A stretch of DNA of 64,000 nt from Crocinitomix sp. (GTDB lineage Bacteria; Bacteroidota; Bacteroidia; Flavobacteriales_D; Crocinitomicaceae), in assembly GCA_013138735.1 (NCBI GenBank), contig WTCE01000009.1, forward strand, positions 1 through 64,000, given 5' to 3'. Every line of letters begins with the position of its first letter. Within the stretch, counting starts at the first letter, position 1. Positions 7,490-24,514 of this stretch are shown one piece after another. A model generated the notes under the pieces. That model ran no database searches, was not told where the DNA came from, and was given only the letters and a program-made list of their open reading frames with translations. Both the position numbers and the translations under genes were made by a program.

Positions 7490-10026
7490 AATGTCGTAAT
7501 ACTCTTTCTTTAATCAAACCACAACTAGATTCGTTAGTTATAATGAACTTACACGAATGTCGTAATACTCTTTCTTTAATCAAACCACAACTCTGAACCA
7601 ATAACCCAACTGTTACTACCCAATGTCGTAATACTCTTTCTTTAATCAAACCACAACAGCTTCAGATAAGAATACAAATTCTAGCTTAATGTCGTAATAC
7701 TCTTTCTTTAATCAAACCACAACTCGTATTGCTTTACGGCTTCATCCATTTTTAATGTCGTAATACTCTTTCTTTAATCAAACCACAACTGTAACTTTAC
7801 TGTTCCTTTAAAAGTTAGTAATGTCGTAATACTCTTTCTTTAATCAAACCACAACTGTATGAATCTAATGATAACAATTAAAGCTAATGTCGTAATACTC
7901 TTTCTTTAATCAAACCACAACCCAAGATAGTCACTGAATGCTTTCGCGTCAAATGTCGTAATACTCTTTCTTTAATCAAACCACAACTCCAATAGTCGTA
8001 AAACTCTCTTAACATTGAATGTCGTAATACTCTTTCTTTAATCAAACCACAACCCGTGAATTGAAAAATATAATCTGAAATATAATGTCGTAATACTCTT
8101 TCTTTAATCAAACCACAACTTATCATTTTAGGATCTAGATTCATTTTTGAATGTCGTAATACTCTTTCTTTAATCAAACCACAACTGATGTCCTTGATGG
8201 AGCTTTCAAAATCTAAATGTCGTAATACTCTTTCTTTAATCAAACCACAACTGAATGTCTGCAATCTTCTCGTCATACTCTAATGTCGTAATACTCTTTC
8301 TTTAATCAAACCACAACTGACCTCCAGCATTAGCCTTTTGATTTTTGAATGTCGTAATACTCTTTCTTTAATCAAACCACAACTCAACACCCAAATTGGA
8401 ATGTAAGGTTGCAAATGTCGTAATACTCTTTCTTTAATCAAACCACAACCCGCGTAAAGCTGGACTCCGATTTTGCATTAATGTCGTAATACTCTTTCTT
8501 TAATCAAACCACAACTTGTTGGTCGATTTGATAATGAACATTTTTAATGTCGTAATACTCTTTCTTTAATCAAACCACAACTTTAGCTAACTTCTTTAGT
8601 TGCTCTAATTGAATGTCGTAATACTCTTTCTTTAATCAAACCACAACCTGTGTCACCTGTTTTCGAATTTCGCGCACAATGTCGTAATACTCTTTCTTTA
8701 ATCAAACCACAACCCAGCAATAACAATATTTAAAGGAGGATTCAATGTCGTAATACTCTTTCTTTAATCAAACCACAACTAGATCTATTCATTTTATGCC
8801 GTTGCTATTAATGTCGTAATACTCTTTCTTTAATCAAACCACAACTTAAGTGCTGTAACCTAATCATTGAAGGCAAATGTCGTAATACTCTTTCTTTAAT
8901 CAAACCACAACATTAAATCGTTTTTGGTGTTCCATTTGTATAATGTCGTAATACTCTTTCTTTAATCAAACCACAACCAGCTGGGATACTAAATCAGATC
9001 ATGTGCTAATGTCGTAATACTCTTTCTTTAATCAAACCACAACTTACCTCATTGAATCTATCCTCAAAGGTTTAATGTCGTAATACTCTTTCTTTAATCA
9101 AACCACAACAAGGTCATACCAATAACGCGAGTCGGGTTTAATGTCGTAATACTCTTTCTTTAATCAAACCACAACATAGCATTAAAAATTGTCTCGGTCA
9201 TTGAAAATGTCGTAATACTCTTTCTTTAATCAAACCACAACTCCATCTAGCGGTGGATGAGGGATTGATAAAATGTCGTAATACTCTTTCTTTAATCAAA
9301 CCACAACTATATTTGGGGTTATGGCGCGTTGTAACGAATGTCGTAATACTCTTTCTTTAATCAAACCACAACAAACATCTTGAAAGTGATCGCTCCATAT
9401 TCAATGTCGTAATACTCTTTCTTTAATCAAACCACAACTACGGCTTAGACTGTTCACGACCTGTAACAAATGTCGTAATACTCTTTCTTTAATCAAACCA
9501 CAACTTTAATTATCTTATCAATTGCGTTTAATACAATGTCGTAATACTCTTTCTTTAATCAAACCACAACTGTTAAAGTGCGCACCGTCTATTTGTTTAC
9601 AATGTCGTAATACTCTTTCTTTAATCAAACCACAACTAGACGAAATGACTTGGGACGCTGCAACTAAATGTCGTAATACTCTTTCTTTAATCAAACCACA
9701 ACTTATGCTAGTGACCTAAGTTATGAGGGAATAATGTCGTAATACTCTTTCTTTAATCAAACCACAACCGGATGGGGTCATTTTGTTAAGGTTGCACAAA
9801 TGTCGTAATACTCTTTCTTTAATCAAACCACAACTGATAAGGTTGCGAAATTTGCAGGTACTTAAATGTCGTAATACTCTGTCTTTAATCAAACCACAAC
9901 TTCCTAATGTGATGGCTAATGATTGCATGTAATGTCGTAATACTCTTTCTTTAATCAAACCACAACTGTAATGTGAAGTTACTTTGAACTGCAATAAATG
10001 TCGTAATACTCTTTCTTTAATCAAAC
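7490..10026 (-). CRISPR. Type II-C CRISPR array, 39 repeats and 38 spacers
   Basis: A 36-bp repeat begins GTTGTGGTTTGATTAAAG and ends AGAGTATTACGACATT in the transcribed (minus) orientation. It recurs with a 66-bp period: 30-bp spacers except one of 29 bp at 9308-9336. I traced 39 copies. All inspected copies are identical except a T-to-G change (plus strand) in the copy at 9865 and the last copy at 9997, which matches only 30 bases before diverging. Orientation is fixed by complementarity to the tracrRNA anti-repeat, so transcription runs right to left, toward cas2. The degenerate copy is then at the 5' end of the transcript, as described for other II-C arrays. Short open frames inside the array are repeat artefacts. 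I could not test spacer targets. Confidence 0.97.
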
Positions 10027-13379: not shown

Positions 13380-14579
13380 ATCGCTAAATCGAATAACTAT
13401 CAACTAGAATTAGACGCCTCACTTGATCAGGCGCGATACAATCTATCTAAAAACCTAACCTTATTATCAACTGGTTTATTACTTATAATTGGCGTTATCT
13501 ATTTCTTTGAGAATGACTTATCGGCATACTTAATTATTGCTGGCGGAATAATTTCTTTGATTTCCTATATTGCAACAGTGCGTACTAAAAAATACCGCAC
13601 TCCCGTCATGGTTAGTTTAATTCTATTGACCATGCTCAATGTTTTTAACCTATCGTTGACATCCAATTTTTATCATATTGGTGATTATTTTTGGGTAATT
13701 TGTATTGTAACATCAGGGTTTTTCATTTTAGGCAAAAATTGGGGAATTCTCCTCATCATTGTTAACCTTTCAGTTATATACGTCATTTTCTATATGATTC
13801 GAATTGAGATGGTAGAACAAATACCAAAGCCGTTCACAGATTTTAGCCAAATGAACTTTTTCATTAATTTATGCATGGGTGGTGTCCTATTTTCATTTTT
13901 AATTATTCAGTTTTTAAAGGAGAATAAGGAAATGGCGCAGAAATACCTCCTCGCAAATAGTGAATTGCAATTAATGAATGAAGAAAAAACGGTGATGCTT
14001 AAAGAAATTCACCACCGCGTTAAAAACAATTTACAAATAGTAACAAGTTTGTTACGCTTACAAACGAGTGACGTTGATGACCCCAAAGTTCTCAATGAAT
14101 TTTCCGAAGCCATAGATCGTATTTCTGCTATTGCTAAAATTCACGAAAAAATGTACAATAATAAGTCACTCAATCAAATTGATTTATCCGAATATTTAGA
14201 AGATTTAATTACTGACTTGCTCACTTCTTATACAGACAAAAACACGATTCAAGCTGAAATCAACTCGAACATTAATTTTATTCCGCCCAAAGACCTTGTG
14301 CCAATTGCTTTAATTTTTAATGAATTAGTGACCAACTCGGTAAAGCACGCATTTAAAAATCAAGAACACAGCAAAATAATAATAGACGCATTTATTACAG
14401 ATGAAAATCGCGTAAAACTCTCCTATTCGGACAATGGAAGTTGGGCTGAGCCAAAAAAAGTATCCCAAAGCATTGGACTAGATTTAATTGAAAGTTTTGT
14501 TGAGCAATTAGATGGCACTTATGAGATTGATAAGACCAACGGCACTAAATATGTGATTCATTTTGTAATTAAAGAATAG
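13380..14579 (+). CDS. Membrane sensor histidine kinase, HisKA_2 type, start codon unclear
   Basis: The conserved part has several transmembrane helices, then a helix leading to [22 protein letters not shown], the HisKA_2 dimerisation/phosphoacceptor motif, then HATPase motifs ([41 protein letters not shown]). It would autophosphorylate on the histidine of EIHHR; no partner regulator lies nearby. The first normal start is a TTG at 13557 in the middle of a hydrophobic helix. The frame is open upstream from 13368 and reads [18 protein letters not shown] then a complete transmembrane helix ([16 protein letters not shown]), so I extend it to the ATC at 13380. No ATG, GTG or TTG exists in that extension. 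Either a rare start codon or a lost start is possible. Confidence 0.75.
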
Positions 14580-15969: not shown

Positions 15970-17280
15970 CTAAATCCCCAAATGCTTGGCATGGACAGAA
16001 GTCTTCCTCGGGTTCCAAGGATCTTGATAGGACTTTTTAAAGAACAATTCTTGAATGTAGGCAACGGTTCTAACAACCCTTAAATAAATCCCGAAATAGA
16101 ATACCATGCAAGGCAAATAGATTAAGAAATAAGACATGGAGGCATGCGCTTTTTCGCGATAGAGAGAGTACACGATAAACTTAACAAAATTAGTAGCGGT
16201 ATACAGTAAGATATTGGTAATGAAAATGTTTAAAAACAAGGGGCGATAAAAACTAAGCATGATTAATAGGTACACGTACCACTTAAAGTTTAGAACCACA
16301 TTATACATTATATTTTCAAAAGCCGAGAAAAAATCTAACATTTTAAAAGATGCTGTTGGCATTAACACATCCTTATGCTTTCGCATTCTAAAACGCACCA
16401 AAGATTTATCCCAACGCAAACGTTGCTTTATTAATTTTCTAAAAGTGTTTGGCACAGATGTTAAACAATTGGCATCTTGCGCAAATTTAATTTTGTAGCC
16501 TTTTTTACGAATTTTCACCGTTATATCTCCATCTAATCCAGGACCAATATCCCACCCCTTTAGTTGATCAATTACATCTGCTCGGAACGCACCAAAGGCT
16601 CCTGAAATAATTCTGTAGATCCCCAAATAAGATGTCACTGTTCGGCCGGTTGTAATTGTATTGAAATATTCAACACCTTGCAATGTCGTAACCAAACTTT
16701 CTTTATAATTCCTCACACTCACATTACCACCTACACCACCAACACGTTCATCTTCAAAAAATGGAATTAGAATTTTCTCCATGGCATCATTGTCATAAGA
16801 GCAATCGGCATCTAAATGAATGATGTATTTACCTTTTGCGAATCGCAAAGCTGTATTTGCGGCAGAAGCTTTCCCCCCTCTTACTTCATTCCGAATAAAC
16901 ATGTCGATTAAACCTGCTTTTTCAAGCGACCGCCCAATGATAGGTGTATCGTCATCAGATCCATCACAGACCACAATAATTTCAATATTTTTATAGGTTT
17001 GTTCCCCTAATGAATTCACCAATTTAAAAAGGTGTTTCCCTTCATTTTTACCGGGAATTAAAATCGAAACTAAGGGGTTTTCCATGAAGAGCCTTCGGCG
17101 CGCATCCTCTTTATGGGGTTTATTAAAAACCGCCCTAATTTTCGCCAAATTAAGAACGATAAACTCCAATAAAAAATAACGAACGAATTCGAAAACAAAA
17201 TAAAACCAGAAAAGTTCTACAAAGTAAGCAGGCGTTAAGGTAGCCAGAAATCTTATATAATTATCTAAGAGTTCGTCCAC
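15970..17280 (-). CDS. Processive family-2 glycosyltransferase (PgaC/IcaA-like)
   Basis: A 436-residue membrane glycosyltransferase. It starts with a hydrophobic segment, then the GT-A domain (VSILIPGKNEGKHLFKLV, VVCDGSDDDT, the DxD in HLDADCSYDNDAM, the acceptor-site region GPGLDGDIT, and the QxxRW motif as QRLRW). Three or four C-terminal transmembrane helices follow. QxxRW is characteristic of processive enzymes such as those making cellulose, hyaluronan or poly-N-acetylglucosamine, so it probably polymerises a sugar at the inner membrane and extrudes it. It is the last gene of a four-gene minus-strand operon, 6 bp after the TackOD1-like gene. The product polysaccharide is unknown. Confidence 0.88.
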   Translation of the reverse strand: MDELLDNYIRFLATLTPAYFVELFWFYFVFEFVRYFLLEFIVLNLAKIRAVFNKPHKEDARRRLFMENPLVSILIPGKNEGKHLFKLVNSLGEQTYKNIEIIVVCDGSDDDTPIIGRSLEKAGLIDMFIRNEVRGGKASAANTALRFAKGKYIIHLDADCSYDNDAMEKILIPFFEDERVGGVGGNVSVRNYKESLVTTLQGVEYFNTITTGRTVTSYLGIYRIISGAFGAFRADVIDQLKGWDIGPGLDGDITVKIRKKGYKIKFAQDANCLTSVPNTFRKLIKQRLRWDKSLVRFRMRKHKDVLMPTASFKMLDFFSAFENIMYNVVLNFKWYVYLLIMLSFYRPLFLNIFITNILLYTATNFVKFIVYSLYREKAHASMSYFLIYLPCMVFYFGIYLRVVRTVAYIQELFFKKSYQDPWNPRKTSVHAKHLGI

Positions 17281-17286
17281 CGTAAA

Positions 17287-18708
17287 CTAGCTAAAATCAG
17301 TAATTAATTCTTTTAAATGTGCCTCATGTGTTTTAGCATAATCAAGCGCCACTACTTTTGTATCAAACAATACGTCTAAATCTTCAAAACTTGTCTTAAT
17401 TAAGTCGTTCAGTAATGAAACCATTTCGCCAATAATCTTCTTCGCAATTTTATTTGGAATGGCATTCATAGACATTACAATTGTTGAAGAACTCTCAAAT
17501 GCTATCACATCTGATGAGCGAATATTACTTCTGATTACGGAAACCAAATCTTTCAATAAACCTCTTTGCAAATCACTTCCCAACTTAGAATAAACCTGAG
17601 ATGAATTACTAATGTTAATCGCACAAATATTACTTTGACCCTCCGTTTGTTTCAGACGCTCAATTTCATATTTAAGCATTGTCTTAAAGGTGTCGTATTT
17701 AATTGTACCAATTACCTCATCAATATCTTTGGTAGTTGTGACAAATCCTTTAATGGCTGCCAATTCTCCTTTTTTCGTTAAGCGGTATGATTTTATTTCA
17801 GTTGGTTTTAAAGTCTCCACCGATTTATCAGAAAGACATGAAAGACATTTCGCATTCACATGATAATCCTGAAATTTATGATGACAGTTATTGCAATCAT
17901 GAATTACGGATGGCTTGTCATAATCAACTCCAATATGCTTTAAACGCTTATTACATTTTGGACAATCTAATTTATCATCAATTTCATTCTTAAAATCTTG
18001 CATTGGTCCAACGTATCCGCACGGAAAGTGATGGACTATGTCATCTGGTGTTGTATTTGAACTGCTACATTTTGGACAAACCTCGCGATAACTCAAGTGA
18101 TTACTAGAACAAGATGAGCAAAGGTATACGCGATCATAATAATCTGATCGTAAGATGCCTTCTTCCTCAGCAATTTTTAAAATATCAAGTGCCACTGTTT
18201 CCTCAGTCCGTTGAAAATTAACCGATAATAGCGGGTAATAATAACCAATATTAGAATAAACATATGGAAACGGATCAACCGTTTTTTGCTCTTTTGTATA
18301 AAGTAGGGTAATTAATTTCGTTATAATTTGTGCTTCAAATGAAATTGAATTCGTAAACGTCAAATCTTGAACACGCGTTGAAATGCGTTCAACAGTTGGA
18401 ACTACGAGATCTAATTCATCCAATCCTTTTATTGAGCCGTCAGCCAATTCATCCATTACCGCATCATCATATGTATCCTTTTTGAGAAGGAAGATAGGTT
18501 TTAAATAAATATCGGGACTAAGATTTGCTCTGATACTCGAAACCATAAGACGGACGAAGTCATAGTTTTTCACTTCTATGATTACAGCACTGTGGTACTG
18601 CACCTCTTCTACCGGGATAGGGCTTAAGTTCCGAATATACAAGAACGAGAAACCAGCGTGCTCTATAATAGATTCCGCATTGTCCTTATGTTCTGCAATA
18701 TGCTTCAT
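17287..18708 (-). CDS. TackOD1-like multi-cysteine protein with degenerate GGDEF-like domain
   Basis: 473 residues in three parts. Residues 1 to about 115 look like a pseudo-receiver (alternating strands and helices, no phosphoacceptor I can assign). Residues 197-291 hold paired cysteines: C197/C200, C211/C214, C230, C249/C252, C272/C275, C288/C291. This resembles the predicted metal-binding TackOD1 domain. Residues about 340-473 follow the order of a diguanylate cyclase fold (ICAINISNSSQVYSKLG, SDVIAFESSSTIVMSM), but ESSST occupies the GGDEF position, so it should not make cyclic di-GMP. No membrane helix is seen. Its stop is 6 bp from the glycosyltransferase start and its ATG overlaps the upstream adaptor gene end. 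A cytosolic regulator of the glycosyltransferase is the likely role (inference). Confidence 0.75.
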   Translation of the reverse strand: MKHIAEHKDNAESIIEHAGFSFLYIRNLSPIPVEEVQYHSAVIIEVKNYDFVRLMVSSIRANLSPDIYLKPIFLLKKDTYDDAVMDELADGSIKGLDELDLVVPTVERISTRVQDLTFTNSISFEAQIITKLITLLYTKEQKTVDPFPYVYSNIGYYYPLLSVNFQRTEETVALDILKIAEEEGILRSDYYDRVYLCSSCSSNHLSYREVCPKCSSSNTTPDDIVHHFPCGYVGPMQDFKNEIDDKLDCPKCNKRLKHIGVDYDKPSVIHDCNNCHHKFQDYHVNAKCLSCLSDKSVETLKPTEIKSYRLTKKGELAAIKGFVTTTKDIDEVIGTIKYDTFKTMLKYEIERLKQTEGQSNICAINISNSSQVYSKLGSDLQRGLLKDLVSVIRSNIRSSDVIAFESSSTIVMSMNAIPNKIAKKIIGEMVSLLNDLIKTSFEDLDVLFDTKVVALDYAKTHEAHLKELITDFS

Positions 18709-19760
18709 TAAAAAGTTCTTTTTGTTAGTTCAACGCTTAACTTATAATATCTTTTCCAAAGGTCCAAGTCACTTCCTTCTGCAGGTTTAATATCAACGGC
18801 TATTGTTCGCTTTACAGGTTCAAATTTCTTTTGAAACTCCTCCGGCATCAATACAGTAGACGAATAAAAACGGTCAATGACACCCTCACTCTCTTGTCCA
18901 TCTGGAAAAAGTATGTTTACATGGTCATCAACCTTTACGTATTTTAAATCTTTTTGTTCGAAATATCCTTTGATATGAACAGAGTCTGCTTGGTGAATTT
19001 TTATAATCATTTCACTTTTTAAAGCAACTTCAAATGGTTCTTTATATATTCTAGAAATGTATCCATCAATCGGCGATACATATGTGCGGTAAGGCGAGTA
19101 CTCTTGGGGCGCAGCAGTAATAGCGTCTGCAGTTTCATTTGCCCCTGTTTGCAGGGCCATTAATTGTTTGTTTAATACGCCGTTTTCTGATTGCGTTAGA
19201 CTTATTGACGTTTCTAGCTTACTAATTTGATACTCTAAGTTTTGCAAATCTCGTTCATTCGCTGCTCCTAAAATAACTTCGTTTTCTAATTGACCTAATT
19301 GTGATTTGTAAGAAGTTAAGAGTTGTCGATCTCCTCTAATTTGACTATTATTTAAGTCAATACTCTTTTGCAATGAATACATTTCACGTTCCGTCCAATT
19401 GCTTTCATTGCCAGTATTCGCCAAAGGATCAATTCCAACAGCAAATGCAGGATCTTCAATCAAATAGGAGAACAATGTATCTCCAACTTTTATATTATCC
19501 CCTTCATTATAGTAAAATTTCTCAATTCTAATATCTTCAGTTTGACTGATGTCAACATTGTCAAAAATTACTTGACCGTTTGCAGTGATATAGAAATTGC
19601 TCAAGAAAAAATAACGTAAAACAAAAAATACAATAAGCGCCAAAATAGATAAATAGACTACCCTATCCCAATTAAATCGGGATCGCTTCTTACCAGTTAC
19701 TTTTTCTTCTAAGTAACGAAGCTGGGAATTCTCTTTTCTTTTAAAACTAAGACTCTTCAT
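18708..19760 (-). CDS. HlyD-like periplasmic adaptor (membrane fusion protein)
   Basis: 350 residues: a basic cytosolic start, one transmembrane helix (VVYLSILALIVFFVLRYFF, about 33-52), then a periplasmic adaptor. The latter has a split biotinyl-lipoyl-like domain (ITANGQVIFDNVDISQ, FYYNEGDNIKVGDTLFSY, later YRTYVSPIDGYISRIYKEPFEVALKSEMIIKI), a coiled-coil hairpin (about 130-205) and a beta-barrel (VDDHVNILFPDGQESEGVIDRFY). The family bridges inner-membrane transporters to TolC-type channels. No ABC or RND pump is encoded nearby, so the partner is probably the downstream glycosyltransferase. One base separates it from the TolC-like gene upstream; its end overlaps the next start. Confidence 0.85.
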   Translation of the reverse strand: MKSLSFKRKENSQLRYLEEKVTGKKRSRFNWDRVVYLSILALIVFFVLRYFFLSNFYITANGQVIFDNVDISQTEDIRIEKFYYNEGDNIKVGDTLFSYLIEDPAFAVGIDPLANTGNESNWTEREMYSLQKSIDLNNSQIRGDRQLLTSYKSQLGQLENEVILGAANERDLQNLEYQISKLETSISLTQSENGVLNKQLMALQTGANETADAITAAPQEYSPYRTYVSPIDGYISRIYKEPFEVALKSEMIIKIHQADSVHIKGYFEQKDLKYVKVDDHVNILFPDGQESEGVIDRFYSSTVLMPEEFQKKFEPVKRTIAVDIKPAEGSDLDLWKRYYKLSVELTKRTF

Positions 19761-21797
19761 TTATTGTCTTCCTCTTTTATCAAAGCTAATTATTCGTTGT
19801 AAATCATGATAAGCAAATTCGTCAAGATCTAATCTTTTCTGTAACTCATCAATCTTATTCTCCATTTCTAGGCGGTTATTGAAATCCTCTGTACGTAATG
19901 CAATCACAACTTTGTCCGCATATTCTTCCATAAATGGCGATATTTTCCGCACTAAGAAGTCTGTATCTACGTTTTCGTAGCACATAAAATAAACTTTGTC
20001 TACTAACTGAAAAAGTTGATTCATTATGAACGTATCATAATGTTTCGGAACAGAAATCTCTAATTTTAAGTCGTTCTTTTTACAAAAACGGCTTACTTCT
20101 GCCACTAGTACCACATATTTATTCAAAAGGTTCCTTCTATCTTTTTCCCAATTGTCAAACGTGTGCGGCTCAATATCTAAATGAATTCCAGTAGGTGTTG
20201 TTTTATCATAGTTCTTTAAAACGCGCTCTAAGTATCCTGTAATATCGGTATTATAAAACAACTTATTATTACCCAGCATGAAATAAACTTCACTGCTTTC
20301 AGAAGCGTATTGCATGAATAATTTCTTTTCTTTCGAAACATCCTTATCACTAACCGCTACAATCATTTTACCAAACTCATTATAAACGGCATACTCAGCT
20401 AAAAAGTCTCCTGTGTAATTTTCAAAAGTTTTACTCCAAATATAAACGTCTCTTTTCCTAGTTTTAACGTATTCAAACAAATCACCTGCAGACTGACTTT
20501 TGATAATATCATCAATTTTTACACCCGGAATTTTTGTATGAATCTTAAGCGCTTTTAAATACAAACCTTGCAATAATTCAAGCAACTCAATATCAGACTC
20601 CATTAGTTCATCTAACAAATCTAAACCCTTAAATGGGTCACCTGATATTTCACTTAATCGCATTTTCGCTTTTTCTATTCTAAGGCGTTCGCTTATTAAC
20701 TTTCGAGTTTGATAATTGTCCACAAATCGTTTCATTTGGTAACGAAACTCATAAGCAGTATTTAAAACATCTTCATGTAACTGAGCGCGATCTCTTGTAA
20801 ATCGTTCATTTTCATATTTCCATTTTTCATGCTCCACCTCATTGTTCAGCTTTGTGTTAAAACTCAATGGCACAGTTACATTCACTCCCGCAGAAAAATA
20901 CTGTCGATTATCTCCAGTAATAATGTCATAGTAGTTGTAACGCGCAAATGGACGCAAACCAACTTCATGGTACCATTTAAAATATTCAAGATAATCAACC
21001 CCCCCCGCTAACAAACTATCGGTTTGTACACCTACAAGTTTAAAAATGGCATCATAATCTAAATCAATTAAAGGCAAGTCTTTCGACATAAAATCAACTG
21101 AATCCGCCTCTATACCCAAATAATCATTATAACTTTTATAGACGTTAATTAAACTCTCTACCTCTGCAAGACGTATCTCTACCTTAATTAGCTGCTCCTT
21201 TTTTAGTTTTTTCAGAAACACAAGGTCACGAACCAAAGAATGCTGCTTTTCTAGCTCTACCAGCCTTATTTCTAAAAGATTCAACTTCATTCGGTTAAAT
21301 GCGAAAACCGTTTGATCGAAACGTTGCACATAATATTGACTTTCCTTGGCGATATCATTGCTCAATTTTTCGCGTAAAATACGGTCATCAATCATCTGGG
21401 CACGCACCCTGTTTTCAGAGTATCCACCACTTAAGACCTCCCACTCAACACCCGCTTGAACGCGACGTTGGTAACCAATATTATTCTCTAATCCTTCTGA
21501 CGGATCTGCATTAAAATTTTCGACATAACTTCCCGCAGCATTTAAGCCAATGTCCTTGCGCAATTGCTCAGCTCGTTTTTGCAAATAGACTGCTCGATCT
21601 GGAAATTGATTTAGATCCTCTATGTTTGAAATTTCACGGATTAGGACTAAAGACGTATCTTTAAATTCCATTGGCGTATACTCATACTCCTCAAAAAGAA
21701 TTTTTAGCTCCGCTATTTTTGATAAAAGCAGGGAGTCTCTTTGAGTAAATGCTGTTCCACAGCAAAACATAAATATGAGCAAAAAAATTCTTTTCAT
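19761..21797 (-). CDS. TolC-like outer-membrane protein fused to a glycosidase-like domain
   Basis: About 678 residues. A signal peptide (MKRIFLLIFMFCCGTAFTQ) precedes a long helical TolC-like region: VQAGVEWEVLSGG, an alpha-hairpin, then YFSAGVNVTVPLSFNTKLNNE. After about residue 440 the protein changes to a separate alpha/beta domain of some 230 residues with GIHLDIEPH, LKLEISVPKHYDTF, VYFMCYEN and VVIALRTEDF. This looks like a TIM-barrel glycoside hydrolase, the LDIEP strand recalling the catalytic strand of GH18-like enzymes. Such a fusion is unusual and recalls PgaB, whose barrel cleaves exported poly-N-acetylglucosamine. I moved the start from 21827 to 21797 because a perfect -7 element (21815-21822) overlaps the upstream start and the signal peptide begins here. 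Confidence 0.75.
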   Translation of the reverse strand: MKRIFLLIFMFCCGTAFTQRDSLLLSKIAELKILFEEYEYTPMEFKDTSLVLIREISNIEDLNQFPDRAVYLQKRAEQLRKDIGLNAAGSYVENFNADPSEGLENNIGYQRRVQAGVEWEVLSGGYSENRVRAQMIDDRILREKLSNDIAKESQYYVQRFDQTVFAFNRMKLNLLEIRLVELEKQHSLVRDLVFLKKLKKEQLIKVEIRLAEVESLINVYKSYNDYLGIEADSVDFMSKDLPLIDLDYDAIFKLVGVQTDSLLAGGVDYLEYFKWYHEVGLRPFARYNYYDIITGDNRQYFSAGVNVTVPLSFNTKLNNEVEHEKWKYENERFTRDRAQLHEDVLNTAYEFRYQMKRFVDNYQTRKLISERLRIEKAKMRLSEISGDPFKGLDLLDELMESDIELLELLQGLYLKALKIHTKIPGVKIDDIIKSQSAGDLFEYVKTRKRDVYIWSKTFENYTGDFLAEYAVYNEFGKMIVAVSDKDVSKEKKLFMQYASESSEVYFMLGNNKLFYNTDITGYLERVLKNYDKTTPTGIHLDIEPHTFDNWEKDRRNLLNKYVVLVAEVSRFCKKNDLKLEISVPKHYDTFIMNQLFQLVDKVYFMCYENVDTDFLVRKISPFMEEYADKVVIALRTEDFNNRLEMENKIDELQKRLDLDEFAYHDLQRIISFDKRGRQ

Positions 21798-21814
21798 TTG
21801 ATTAAGTAGCCTCG

Positions 21815-21822
21815 CAAATATA
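21815..21822 (-). promoter_or_regulatory. -7 element of the exopolysaccharide-type operon
   Basis: On the minus strand TATATTTG, an exact TAnnTTTG, predicting a start near 21809 and a leader of about 12 nt before the ATG at 21797. This decides the start of the TolC-like gene. Confidence 0.5.
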
Positions 21823-21960
21823 AGCATTTTGGTACAATCGCTTGTTCTTACAACTTGTCCCCTCTTGAATTAAATACTGCACGACTATATCGCTACAATT
21901 ACCTTTTAATTCTCCCCTACTCCAATATGAACTTAATAATACCGTATAAAAACCTAGTAA

Positions 21961-22122
21961 ATGCAATACATTATAATAGATATTGGCTTACGCGACACTT
22001 ATAAATTAGTTACAAAAGAGGAAGTAGAAAATGCCAGTTATTTGGATGTTGATATCGTAATTCGCTGTTTGTGTGCCAATTATAATGCTTTAACATCAAT
22101 TTTATACCCACAATCAAAATGA
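21961..22122 (+). CDS. Possible small protein (53 aa), unrecognised
   Basis: An ATG-initiated frame of 53 codons reading MQYIIIDIGLRDTYKLVTKE and ending at a TGA at 22120-22122. It occupies the gap between the TolC-like gene and the GT9 gene and overlaps the 3' end of the latter by 43 bp on the opposite strand. The composition is protein-like (charged helix after a hydrophobic strand), but no family, promoter or ribosome site supports it. It may be a remnant of a longer gene. Confidence 0.25.
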   Translation: MQYIIIDIGLRDTYKLVTKEEVENASYLDVDIVIRCLCANYNALTSILYPQSK

Positions 22123-23069
22123 CCTTGGGGACAGGCTTTATGTCCATGTAAGCCGCATGGACGGCAATTTAGCTCTTCCTTGACCTCTATAATTTGGGCA
22201 TCAGAAGATACTGGGCCAAATCCAAACGAAGGGACTGTTGAGCAGAAAAAGGCCGTAACTGGAGCATTAACTGCACTAGCCAAATGTAAGGGGGCAGAAT
22301 CGTTGACATATGTTCTGTCCGCCCGAGCGATTAAAGCGGCAGAATCAAGTAAATTTAATTGCCCCGCCATATTGATGATATGATCTGATTGACTTTCGTC
22401 TATAATTCCTTGTAGGTATTCCTCATCCGCCGGTGCTCCAATGAGATAAATGGTGAATTTCGCCTCTTGTAATTGAATCAGCTCAATCCATTTTTCACGT
22501 GGAAGTTGTTTCGTAAACCAAACTGACGCTGGCGCCATAACAAGAATATGACGCTTGTTTGCAACGATTTTGTCCACCTTCAAACTGTTTGCTGGAGTAG
22601 GATATAATTTTGGAGGCTCCGTCTTCAATTCCTGTCCAGTTGATGCAACTTTTAGCAAAGCTGCATTGCGATCAATTTCATGCAAACCCCCTCCAACATC
22701 ATGTTCAACTTTATGATCGAACAACCGTGAAAACGGATTTGATTTAAAACCAACCTTCAATTTTGCCTTGCTTCGCACTGTCAAAAAACCTGTTGACGCG
22801 AAGCGCTGCAGATTATAGACTATATCATAATTCGCATTTCTAATTTGCTTCGAAAGCGCCAATAAATTCTTGTACTTATGCGTCTTTTTATCCCAAACTA
22901 AAACAGCATTGATATAAGGGTGATTCTCTAACAAACTCTCATTCCCTTTTCGCACAAGCACGTCTAATGAAACTTCGTTTCCATATTGGACACGAATGGT
23001 TTCAACCATTGAAGTTGCTAAAATAACATCCCCAATAAAAGCGGTTTGTATGATAAGTACCTTCCTCAA
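22080..23069 (-). CDS. Glycosyltransferase family 9 (heptosyltransferase-like)
   Basis: 329 residues with the ADP-heptose:LPS heptosyltransferase pattern: N-terminal VLIIQTAFIGDVILATSMVE, a central linker, VMAPASVWFTKQLPREKW, and YVNDSAPLHLASAVNAPVTAFF near the C-terminus. It would add a heptose (or related sugar) to the lipopolysaccharide core at the cytosolic face. It is last in a minus-strand operon after a GT4 transferase and a thioesterase, with gaps of 5 bp and zero. The acceptor cannot be inferred. A conserved cysteine cluster at the end (CRPCGLHGHKACPQGHFDC) is seen in many members. Confidence 0.88.
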   Translation of the reverse strand: MRKVLIIQTAFIGDVILATSMVETIRVQYGNEVSLDVLVRKGNESLLENHPYINAVLVWDKKTHKYKNLLALSKQIRNANYDIVYNLQRFASTGFLTVRSKAKLKVGFKSNPFSRLFDHKVEHDVGGGLHEIDRNAALLKVASTGQELKTEPPKLYPTPANSLKVDKIVANKRHILVMAPASVWFTKQLPREKWIELIQLQEAKFTIYLIGAPADEEYLQGIIDESQSDHIINMAGQLNLLDSAALIARADRTYVNDSAPLHLASAVNAPVTAFFCSTVPSFGFGPVSSDAQIIEVKEELNCRPCGLHGHKACPQGHFDCGYKIDVKAL

Positions 23070-23074
23070 TTTTA

Positions 23075-23467
23075 TTATTTTAAATGCACATATTTATCGC
23101 GTACTTGTTGATCAATTGGAATGGACTTTCCTTTTTCATTTACCCGTACAAAAATAAATATTGTTGAACAAACAATTTCCTCTTCTCCCGAATAAAAGTC
23201 TTTATTTCTGGCCTCAATATAAACCGTGAGGGATGATCTCCCCATGCGTTTAACCTCCCCATAAATTAGAACCTGATCTCCGTTTTTCACAGGCCGTTCA
23301 AATATCATTTCATCAATTTTGGCAGTTACCATATATGGGTTTTGACAAACGCTACAGGCCCATGTTGCCGCAGCTTCATCCAACCATGCTAACATATTTC
23401 CTCCAAAAAGATTGCCATGCACGCCAATATCTTTAGTCATGCATAATTTGATCGCTAATTTCTCCAT
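23075..23467 (-). CDS. Acyl-CoA thioesterase, hotdog fold (YciA-like)
   Basis: A 130-residue single hotdog domain. The central helix motif HGNLFGGNMLAWLDEAAATWA, with the conserved Asp for thioester hydrolysis, is clear, followed by PVKNGDQVLIYGEVKRMGRSSLTVYIEAR. The family hydrolyses acyl-CoA thioesters in the cytosol, acting as hexamers. It lies between two glycosyltransferase genes with no spacing on either side worth noting (zero and 5 bp), so it is co-transcribed. A link to lipid A or cell-envelope acyl supply is only a guess. Confidence 0.9.
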   Translation of the reverse strand: MEKLAIKLCMTKDIGVHGNLFGGNMLAWLDEAAATWACSVCQNPYMVTAKIDEMIFERPVKNGDQVLIYGEVKRMGRSSLTVYIEARNKDFYSGEEEIVCSTIFIFVRVNEKGKSIPIDQQVRDKYVHLK

Positions 23468-24514
23468 TTATTTTCTGTTAATCTCTAAAATTCGTTTGGC
23501 CCATTGATCTGTGGTATATGACATGCCAATTTCATGACTCGCTTTTCCTTTCTCAATCAACTCTGTATCATTCATTACTATTATTTGCTCCATTGCTCTT
23601 TTAATAGCGTCAACACTTCCTGCTTTAAATGAGCTCCCGTTCTCTTTCAAAAATTGTTCTTTTGCTCCAATTTCATCACTTAAAAGTAATGGAAACCCAG
23701 CTATAGCAAATTCTTGAACACTTACACCCCATGGCTCAAATTTACTTGGCAAAATATATACGCCCGTTTCGCTAATATATTGATTCAGGTCAGCAGGTTG
23801 TACAAAACCAAAATGTTTAATTTTTTCGTGCTCAAGTCGATTTTCCCATTGGTCCCCAGTTCCTAAACACCATAATTCCCACTCGTTTGGATTTTCTTTT
23901 TGCAATTGTGCGAATGCCTCCCATAATTCAAAAATTCCTTTATGTTCAACATAGCGCCCAACGTATAAAAACCGCTTTGGAAAATTCTTTTCTTTTTCAG
24001 CAAATGTCTCCTCAAACTTCTGGTTAAAAAGAGCATTGTCGGCGCAATAAAATCCGCGAATTATTTGCGACTCAAATCCTAGCTTCTTAGCATATTCCGC
24101 TTGCGGAGATCCAGGCACCCATGCATGAGTAAATATTTTTTTAAGGTAAAACGGCGAAATGAATGAAGCTACTTTCTGTTTTAAAGTTCCATTCCAATGG
24201 TTATCCAATGACAAAACACGCTTGACATTTTTATCCAATCCTTTAACCAATTTCAAATAATCTTTATCCATCCAACCACTGCAAACCACAATATCAGGAT
24301 TAAATTCAGCCAGTAATTCATTTAATTGGGGAACAGTATAATCTGATTTCGTGACCACATTTAGCTGGTCTGATTTTTCAAATTCAAAGGGAGCCTCTGC
24401 ATTTGTGGGCCAACGAACAACCAAGACTTCAGCCTCTTGAGACAAGGATTGAACACAAGCCATAAAATAACCCGCTACTTCACTGTATAAAAATGCTATT
24501 TTTGTCCCTGTCAT
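23468..24514 (-). CDS. Glycosyltransferase family 4 (GT-B fold)
   Basis: 348 residues with an N-terminal Rossmann-like domain and a GT1/GT4 C-terminal domain: RFLYVGRYVEHKGIFELWEAFAQL, WELWCLGTGD, FGFVQPADLNQYI, and the donor-binding motif PSKFEPWGVSVQEFAIAGFPLLLSDEIGAKE (E-x7-E type). It transfers a nucleotide-sugar-activated hexose at the cytosolic membrane face; the acceptor is unknown. It is first in the minus-strand operon with the thioesterase and GT9 genes. A perfect minus-strand -7 element lies 19 bp upstream (24533-24540). Confidence 0.88.
   Translation of the reverse strand: MTGTKIAFLYSEVAGYFMACVQSLSQEAEVLVVRWPTNAEAPFEFEKSDQLNVVTKSDYTVPQLNELLAEFNPDIVVCSGWMDKDYLKLVKGLDKNVKRVLSLDNHWNGTLKQKVASFISPFYLKKIFTHAWVPGSPQAEYAKKLGFESQIIRGFYCADNALFNQKFEETFAEKEKNFPKRFLYVGRYVEHKGIFELWEAFAQLQKENPNEWELWCLGTGDQWENRLEHEKIKHFGFVQPADLNQYISETGVYILPSKFEPWGVSVQEFAIAGFPLLLSDEIGAKEQFLKENGSSFKAGSVDAIKRAMEQIIVMNDTELIEKGKASHEIGMSYTTDQWAKRILEINRK

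Follow-up and report, generated by a model that had tools for sequence, protein, structure and literature searches.

Gene organization and predicted components

Examination of a 64,000-nucleotide stretch of Crocinitomix sp. DNA (contig WTCE01000009.1, positions 1 to 64,000 of the forward strand; henceforth the window) reveals four tightly packed minus-strand open reading frames (ORFs) spanning 21827 to 15970, where a first-pass annotation made from the bare sequence had placed them. From the 5' end their products are a TolC-type channel with a (β/α)8 glycosidase-like domain fused to its C-terminus (19761..21827), an HlyD/EmrA-type periplasmic adaptor (18708..19760), a regulator that combines a TackOD1 with a pseudo-GGDEF domain and has no hydrophobic segments (17287..18708), and a processive-type family 2 glycosyltransferase (GT2) synthase (15970..17280). 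Along the operon the spacing is 0 base pairs (bp) between fusion and adaptor, a 1-bp overlap between adaptor and regulator, and a 6-bp gap between regulator and GT2. The first-pass annotation had assigned these parts and pointed to the lack of a pump ATPase; the assignments are confirmed by coordinates, Pfam, folds and conservation, and none of the four genes encodes a pump. We propose that the four genes quite probably constitute a self-contained synthase-dependent exopolysaccharide secretion machine.

The channel and its fused barrel

The fusion more likely starts at the internal ATG at 21797 (MKRIFLLIFMFCC...) than at 21827, because the former lines up with where the homologous protein at locus L035 begins. 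By Pfam its channel part gave only a sub-threshold OEP match (0.0014) and its C-terminus nothing above cut-off. An AlphaFold2 model of the whole protein (mean predicted local distance difference test score, pLDDT, 84.4; predicted template modelling score 0.59) shows TolC topology at about residues 95-432, where β pairs accompany two helices 67-69 residues long, in keeping with the two-repeat α-helical barrel and short β segments of TolC-like outer membrane factors. The top Foldseek matches are SilC, CusC and TolC (best E 2.6e-10; root-mean-square deviation about 10-13 Å over the long helices); the assignment of this part comes through its fold, there being no PDB match by sequence profile.

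The C-terminal domain (about residues 451-688; nucleotides 19764..20477) contains eight strand-helix units at 458-685 in the model. Next in the Foldseek ranking are TIM barrels, namely PgaB (1.9e-5), a glycoside hydrolase family 18 (GH18) chitinase (4.7e-5), a GH191 enzyme (1.6e-4), SleL and TM1410. Among the best 50 of 58 matches at E <= 0.001, 12 were to proteins other than TolC relatives, comprising eight glycosidases, three designed barrels and a homocitrate synthase, with the matched domain read from each target's fold. A profile of the tail matched GH18 chitinase weakly (0.0091) and an entry labelled 'putative GH97' at 5.3e-5. Alignment of 14 tails showed seven positions that are invariant in all of them (H99, D101, E103, P104, H105, M165 and Y167 in tail numbering), including D551 and E553 of the full protein, within HLDIEPH at the end of strand 4, and M615 and Y617, within MCY on strand 6. 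GH18 enzymes are marked by DxDxE on the fourth strand and MxY on the sixth; the fused domain has the barrel, D-x-E and MxY, with the first aspartate replaced by histidine (HLDIE). The predicted barrel fold of the tail is well supported, and GH18-like glycosidases are candidates for its enzyme class. The first-pass annotation had singled out this C-terminus as a check of its reading, and it proves to be a predicted (β/α)8 barrel with conserved acidic residues rather than an ordinary TolC extension.

The adaptor, the regulator and the synthase

The adaptor has a single N-terminal hydrophobic segment (about residues 29-60). Both its Pfam match to HlyD_D23 (3.3e-5) and its best NCBIfam match, EmrA/EmrK (7.9e-11), fall under the respective cut-offs, and searched alone against the PDB it found no relative worth naming (best match 0.41).

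The regulator comprises an N-terminal domain (residues 1-118), a cysteine-rich TackOD1 domain (126-310) and a pseudo-GGDEF domain (about 331-470). Its membership of the TackOD1 family (PF18551; 2.1e-52, 177.8 bits against a cut-off of 32) is borne out by the Cys/His metal-site pattern, with C197, C200, C211, C214, C230, C249, C252, C272, C275, C288 and C291 invariant in 19 of 19 regulators. The C-terminus scores under the Pfam GGDEF cut-off (0.002), and its profile matches GGDEF domains at 7.1e-8; the predicted structure (pLDDT 82.0) assumes a GGDEF fold, with a Foldseek match to 3ign at a TM-score of 0.71 on the target. The GG(D/E)EF motif is absent, being ESSST in the window, and is found in none of the aligned sequences that keep the domain. 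RSSD (397-400) occupies the position of the inhibitory site (I-site), and an RxxD motif is present there in 7/7 (window and L033-L038) and 18/19 (L075-L093) sequences from Crocinitomicaceae. After merging of five duplicate rows (L075, L077, L080, L083 and L084 are the same DNA as L035, L033, L034, L037 and L036, and all our counts are on distinct loci) this leaves 20 of 21 distinct loci with the motif, which only L088 lacks. The motif also occurs in two (L029, L031) of 14 other Bacteroidota sequences that keep the domain, a count without L032 and L115, where the pseudo-GGDEF domain is missing from the aligned stretch. The N-terminal domain is homologous to a separate small protein at six loci of family f24 (hhalign 99.4); as a degenerate receiver domain it was rejected by sequence (hhalign probability 0.1).

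The 436-residue GT2 (PF00535, 1.8e-25) has hydrophobic segments at both termini and the motifs DAD, GLDGD and QRLRW; DAD, G[LM]DGD and QRxRW recur in 18 of 18 aligned GT2 sequences. QxxRW is typical of processive synthases, and its combination here with DxD and membrane segments marks the protein as one of this type. Its best NCBIfam match, PgaC_IcaA (TIGR03937), scores 158.1 bits against a cut-off of 422.3, which places it outside the PgaC/IcaA family proper, and its best PDB relatives by profile are chondroitin synthase (1.3e-24, over the first half only) and hyaluronan synthase (1.1e-18). Matches to HIV protease in the PDB were dismissed as chance, for no stretch passes alone and they are gone from the profile search at 1e-10.

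Conservation across Bacteroidota

Of 395 Bacteroidota genomes, 12 encode PF18551 above cut-off, at 13 places (seven further genomes, and two in the Crocinitomicaceae scan below, have sub-threshold matches only and are outside the counts). The same-strand order TolC-HlyD-Tack-GT2 is found at all 13, so that the gene order named as a check in the first-pass annotation is indeed kept. It also recurs in 6/6 named relatives, identified by regulators of 52-94% identity, namely five Crocinitomix entries, including C. catalasitica ATCC 23190 (69%), and one Fluviicola; at L034 the contig ends within the GT2. A profile of the GT2 recovers the same 13 places at E <= 6.4e-204, the next best being one other at 2.3e-62.

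Within Crocinitomicaceae, PF18551 is above cut-off in 25 of 100 genomes. At 19 loci (14 of them new DNA; 5 of 24 other TackOD1 places in the family yielded no locus and were left out) HlyD lies beside Tack in all 19 and GT2 in 17; of the two exceptions, both new loci, one is cut by a contig end and the other has a GT2 1,025 bp further on. In family f24 the domain occurs in 13 of 92 genomes, and its four new loci have GT2 beside Tack in 4/4 and HlyD in 3/4. At six of the 13 Bacteroidota places, all in f24, a receiver-like domain precedes TackOD1 (NCBIfam check on L022), and the counterpart of the N-terminal domain of the window regulator is there encoded by a small gene of its own; at six places this small gene lies between HlyD and Tack.

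A profile of the barrel found 8 of the 13 places and, weakly, three other proteins, and the fusion is present in 6/6 larger Crocinitomicaceae stretches (five new, one from the genome of L036; at L118 the 5' end of the fusion lies outside the stretch). Thus, of the earlier proposal of a hydrolase domain fused to the channel, the barrel fold stands, and its presence is not obligatory.

At four places (L021, L023, L024 and L025) a UDP-sugar dehydrogenase of 455-457 residues, recognized by Pfam in 4/4, is inserted between adaptor and regulator; that of L023 has TviB as its best NCBIfam match (463 bits, below the cut-off of 592), and a gene for a 650-656-residue protein, with DUF4114 in L023, accompanies it at three of the four. 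Since the GT2 is PgaC-like, the barrel resembles those of chitinase and PgaB, and a TviB-like dehydrogenase is present at some loci, our guess from sequence would be a polymer of N-acetylhexosamine type. A uronic-acid polymer is equally possible, because the best PDB relatives of the GT2 are chondroitin and hyaluronan synthases. The TolC proteins of the four dehydrogenase loci lack an intact barrel, and the insertion may hint at a uronic-acid polymer there. Directly after the GT2, four loci encode lipoprotein-like, apparently β-propeller proteins (L022:4287-5519, L026:4653-5924, L030:4636-5832 and L032:4327-6501; a sub-threshold LVIVD match in L026 only), which are possible surface partners of the polymer.

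Relatives on proteobacterial and archaeal plasmids

A tblastn search of plasmids with the regulator returned 22 records, 16 bacterial and 6 archaeal, of which 14 and 5, respectively, were read, the two bacterial records left out being an Aeromonas twin and a weak Sinorhizobium match (E 7e-4). All 14 bacterial loci encode TackOD1, GT2 and HlyD-type proteins, each recognized by profile, and GT2 adjoins Tack in every one, with a small ORF intervening in Alisedimentitalea. The hosts are Aeromonas, Photobacterium, Plesiomonas, Rhodobacteraceae, Alisedimentitalea, Roseibium, Palleronia, Phyllobacterium (3), Aminobacter (2) and Methylocystis (2). In Aeromonas the order is Tack-GT2-TolC-HlyD, and the TolC (694-704 residues, Pfam OEP above cut-off) carries the barrel, as indicated by a profile match at 1.5e-6 over residues 458-561, about the first half of the domain. 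In Methylocystis it is Tack-GT2-HlyD-glycosidase-like-TolC, all as separate genes, with the glycosidase-like protein matched at 1.1e-8. The barrel motif can be seen by eye in both. The occurrence of the fusion in two phyla, and of the separate gene as a neighbor in another group, suggests that the hydrolase-like domain is part of the machine. The window TolC profile misses the TolC proteins of both Aeromonas and Methylocystis, and the channels are therefore alike in kind only. Conservation of the gene set within and across phyla rules out a chance assembly.

In a tree of 39 GT2 sequences, the 34 bacterial Tack-associated ones are grouped together by a branch with support 96/89, only five other sequences, several of them long, being included. 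Among the five archaeal loci read, Halorussus alone has a GT2 nearby (9.2e-41 against the window GT2 profile); the annotated neighborhoods of the other four contain no glycosyltransferase. On the Halorussus halophilus plasmid (L108) TackOD1 is followed by DUF2334 and then GT2, and a TackOD1-GT2 link is possible in archaea too.

Relationship to known polysaccharide systems

The first-pass annotation knew of no named system with this combination, which is probably wrong, since the published make-up of mxdABC of Shewanella appears to match and a cyanobacterial system, XcsAB-TolC, has been proposed on the same principle. By comparison with published descriptions, the window system is most likely a far relative of Mxd, whose MxdC we take to be a membrane-fusion protein. 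The mxdABCD genes of S. oneidensis are described as a putative exopolysaccharide cluster of the regulator MxdA, the GT2 MxdB, the efflux-like MxdC and the hypothetical MxdD (PMC3691769). Mutants in mxdA and mxdB are reported there to be deficient in aggregation and those in mxdB to form no three-dimensional biofilm (PMC3691769, PMC7666153, PMC11395469), and MxdA is reported to bind c-di-GMP (cyclic diguanylate) and CheY3 (PMC7666153, PMC11395469, both citing Gambari 2019). As described, Mxd appears to have a regulator, a GT2 and an efflux-type protein in common with the window system, in an order that the Plesiomonas and Photobacterium relatives show as well, and the receiver-like domain preceding TackOD1 at six Bacteroidota places parallels the CheY3-MxdA contact. 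The accessible part of the description names no TolC gene, in contrast to the window; furthermore, Shewanella uses c-di-GMP, whereas the genome of the window has neither GGDEF nor EAL domains above cut-off.

XcsAB-TolC, a cellulose secretion system proposed in cyanobacteria, likewise combines a GT2, an HlyD-like adaptor (XcsB) and a TolC-like channel with a separate glucanase and no BcsB; according to a 2025 review its experimental validation is lacking and its genes are not in one operon (PMC12430437). Its synthase XcsA bears a PilZ or PCR domain, neither of which is found by Pfam in the 436-residue GT2 of the window, its genes are scattered in T. vulcanus, and that text mentions no TackOD1 regulator. 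The rhizobial mixed-linkage glucan system BgsBA places an HlyD-domain protein beside a GT2 synthase, but BgsA is reported to be CESA_CelA-like and to bind c-di-GMP through its own C-terminus, in a bicistronic operon (PMC9495663). Alginate synthesis by Alg8-Alg44-AlgK-AlgE also pairs a GT2 with a membrane-fusion-type partner under cyclic dinucleotide control, although there PilZ is fused to the adaptor and AlgE with AlgK replaces TolC. XcsAB-TolC, BgsBA and Alg44 are precedents for GT2 enzymes with HlyD-type partners. The poly-N-acetylglucosamine system PgaABCD resembles the window operon in that PgaC/IcaA is nearest to its GT2 by NCBIfam and the highest-ranking barrel in Foldseek belongs to PgaB, a protein that contains a glycosidase domain; it differs in that the operon has no PgaA-type porin, deacetylase or PgaD and its GT2 is far under the PgaC cut-off.

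Catalytically dead GGDEF domains that bind c-di-GMP are described for PelD and BcsE (PMC8461298), which share with the window regulator an RxxD-bearing dead GGDEF fold encoded with a polysaccharide synthase; the latter differs in having TackOD1 and in occurring in 18 carriers without c-di-GMP enzymes above cut-off. The function of TackOD1 is called obscure in a study that mentions pilus loci and some bacteria (PMC5847659), and the domain now gains a recurrent bacterial partner, the GT2 synthase. A search of the open-licence literature, judged by title and start of abstract, did not find TackOD1 combined with a TolC-glycosidase fusion. What appears new is that TackOD1 marks synthases of this kind, the TolC-barrel fusion, and a pseudo-GGDEF that keeps an I-site-like RxxD in carriers without GGDEF or EAL matches above cut-off.

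A proposed export route and its alternatives

In the machine that we propose, the GT2 would polymerize a nucleotide sugar, most likely of N-acetylhexosamine type, in the cytosol, and the growing chain would pass the membrane through the enzyme's own channel. The HlyD-type adaptor would take the chain at the periplasmic face and dock on a TolC trimer, which would carry it out of the cell. On the periplasmic side of the channel the TIM barrel might trim or clear stray periplasmic chains, as do BcsZ, AlgL and the PgaB hydrolase elsewhere, and the TackOD1/pseudo-GGDEF protein could bind the GT2 from the cytosol and activate it with a ligand, a phosphorylated receiver domain, or both. The route from GT2 through adaptor to TolC is compatible with the gene set, its order and the barrel. 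The idea that a GT2 might feed an HlyD-TolC conduit without an intermediary becomes testable here, since all parts lie in one operon and the channel is fused to a putative sugar-cutting domain.

Several observations speak against this scheme. A TolC is neither annotated nor matched by the window TolC profile in 11 of the 14 bacterial plasmid stretches; that profile is insensitive, as its failure with the Aeromonas and Methylocystis proteins indicates, and the channel at these loci may be supplied from elsewhere. The gammaproteobacterial GT2s score 179-206 bits against the window profile, compared with 210 bits for a GT2 outside any such locus (G096), and in the tree the GT2 that neighbors an archaeal TackOD1 gene is not part of the shared branch. 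In Shewanella one review names MxdB instead of MxdA as the c-di-GMP target (PMC8683041). Furthermore, a divergent MFS (major facilitator superfamily)-HlyD-outer-membrane efflux set lies beside the Methylocystis cluster, at L037 an ABC (ATP-binding cassette) ATPase gene (7594-8466; PF00005, 1.5e-36) begins 2 bp after the GT2 and is followed by metabolic genes, and no intact barrel is encoded at 5 of the 13 Bacteroidota places, where it is either absent or degraded.

Given that HlyD/TolC pairs usually serve ABC, RND (resistance-nodulation-division) or MFS pumps, the adaptor and the TolC fusion could instead belong to some ordinary efflux or type 1 secretion pump whose genes lie elsewhere, with the GT2 making an unrelated glycolipid or cell-wall glycan; EmrA as the adaptor's best NCBIfam match and the ATPase at L037 would fit such a role. 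We regard this as very improbable, as adaptor and regulator are tied to the GT2 subfamily at 13/13 places and to a GT2 in 14/14 plasmid loci, no pump gene lies in the window operon, and the QxxRW motif is the one expected of a processive synthase. The dispensability of the barrel bears on its role within the proposed exporter. Rather than being a hydrolase it might bind sugar or guide the chain, or act as a transglycosylase, either fixing the length of the chain or anchoring the polymer, and its lack of one aspartate of the full GH18 signature and of any Pfam family above cut-off point the same way. This is somewhat unlikely in view of the full invariance of D551, E553, M615 and Y617, the recurrence of the motif in Aeromonas and Methylocystis, and the glycosidases that make up eight of the 12 non-TolC matches among the best 50 of 58.

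The ligand of the regulator

Of 40 genomes carrying TackOD1, 18, including that of the window, were searched for GGDEF and EAL domains. Neither was found above cut-off in any of the 18, which leaves room for synthases of other families, and the four sub-threshold GGDEF matches are the regulator itself. Positive controls among 14 named genomes gave GGDEF in 8 and EAL in 6, and across Bacteroidota GGDEF is above cut-off in 133 of 247 genomes. System-free genomes of the same families, where listed, are also without GGDEF, and the absence hence looks like a trait of the lineage and not one coupled to the system. In light of the 18 carriers, control of the regulator by c-di-GMP in this organism is doubtful.

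That the regulator nonetheless works here, too, as a PelD/BcsE/MxdA-type c-di-GMP effector would accord with RxxD at the I-site in 20 of 21 distinct Crocinitomicaceae loci, with RDTD (read by eye) in 3/3 gammaproteobacterial regulators and with the reported binding of c-di-GMP by MxdA. The failure to find its enzymes in 18 carriers while the controls worked, together with the presence of RxxD in only 2 of 14 domain-keeping Bacteroidota sequences outside the family, makes this unlikely in our view. The alternatives are either another ligand, a c-di-GMP source of another family, or input through a receiver domain. As a general ligand c-di-AMP was rejected, diadenylate cyclase being present in 6 of the 18 carriers, all from f24 (6/6 f24 genomes, 0/10 Crocinitomicaceae, 0/2 others). 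Ten Crocinitomicaceae genomes have no GGDEF, EAL or diadenylate cyclase above cut-off, yet keep the GGDEF-fold protein, mostly with RxxD. This raises the question of what the conserved I-site binds in bacteria without detected c-di-GMP enzymes.

More broadly, we tentatively raise the possibility that there are cross-phylum, TackOD1-marked tripartite polysaccharide exporters in which the adaptor-TolC conduit is served by the synthase instead of a pump, the channel protein includes a glycosidase of its own, and, in GGDEF-free lineages, the pseudo-GGDEF has come to respond to some ligand besides c-di-GMP or solely to phospho-receiver input.

Neighboring genes and minor features

A HisKA_2 histidine kinase, recognized by Pfam, is encoded on the plus strand at 13557..14579, near the 3' end of the operon, and is a candidate input to the regulator; a homolog, which could feed the regulator, adjoins the GT2 gene in L033, L035, L118 and L122. 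Upstream of the operon, at 22080-24514 in the window, lie genes for a GT9, a thioesterase and a GT4, a set kept in the close relatives L033-L036, L119 and L123 and not adjoining the operon in L037, L038, L120 and L121. Promoter-like sites are in no excess (28 against 27.7 in shuffled sequences), and terminator-like sites are in hardly any (7 against 4.0, standard deviation 2.1). The G000 assembly is 6.8 Mb in size, compared with 2.9-6.1 Mb for the other genomes of the same genus in the Crocinitomicaceae scan.

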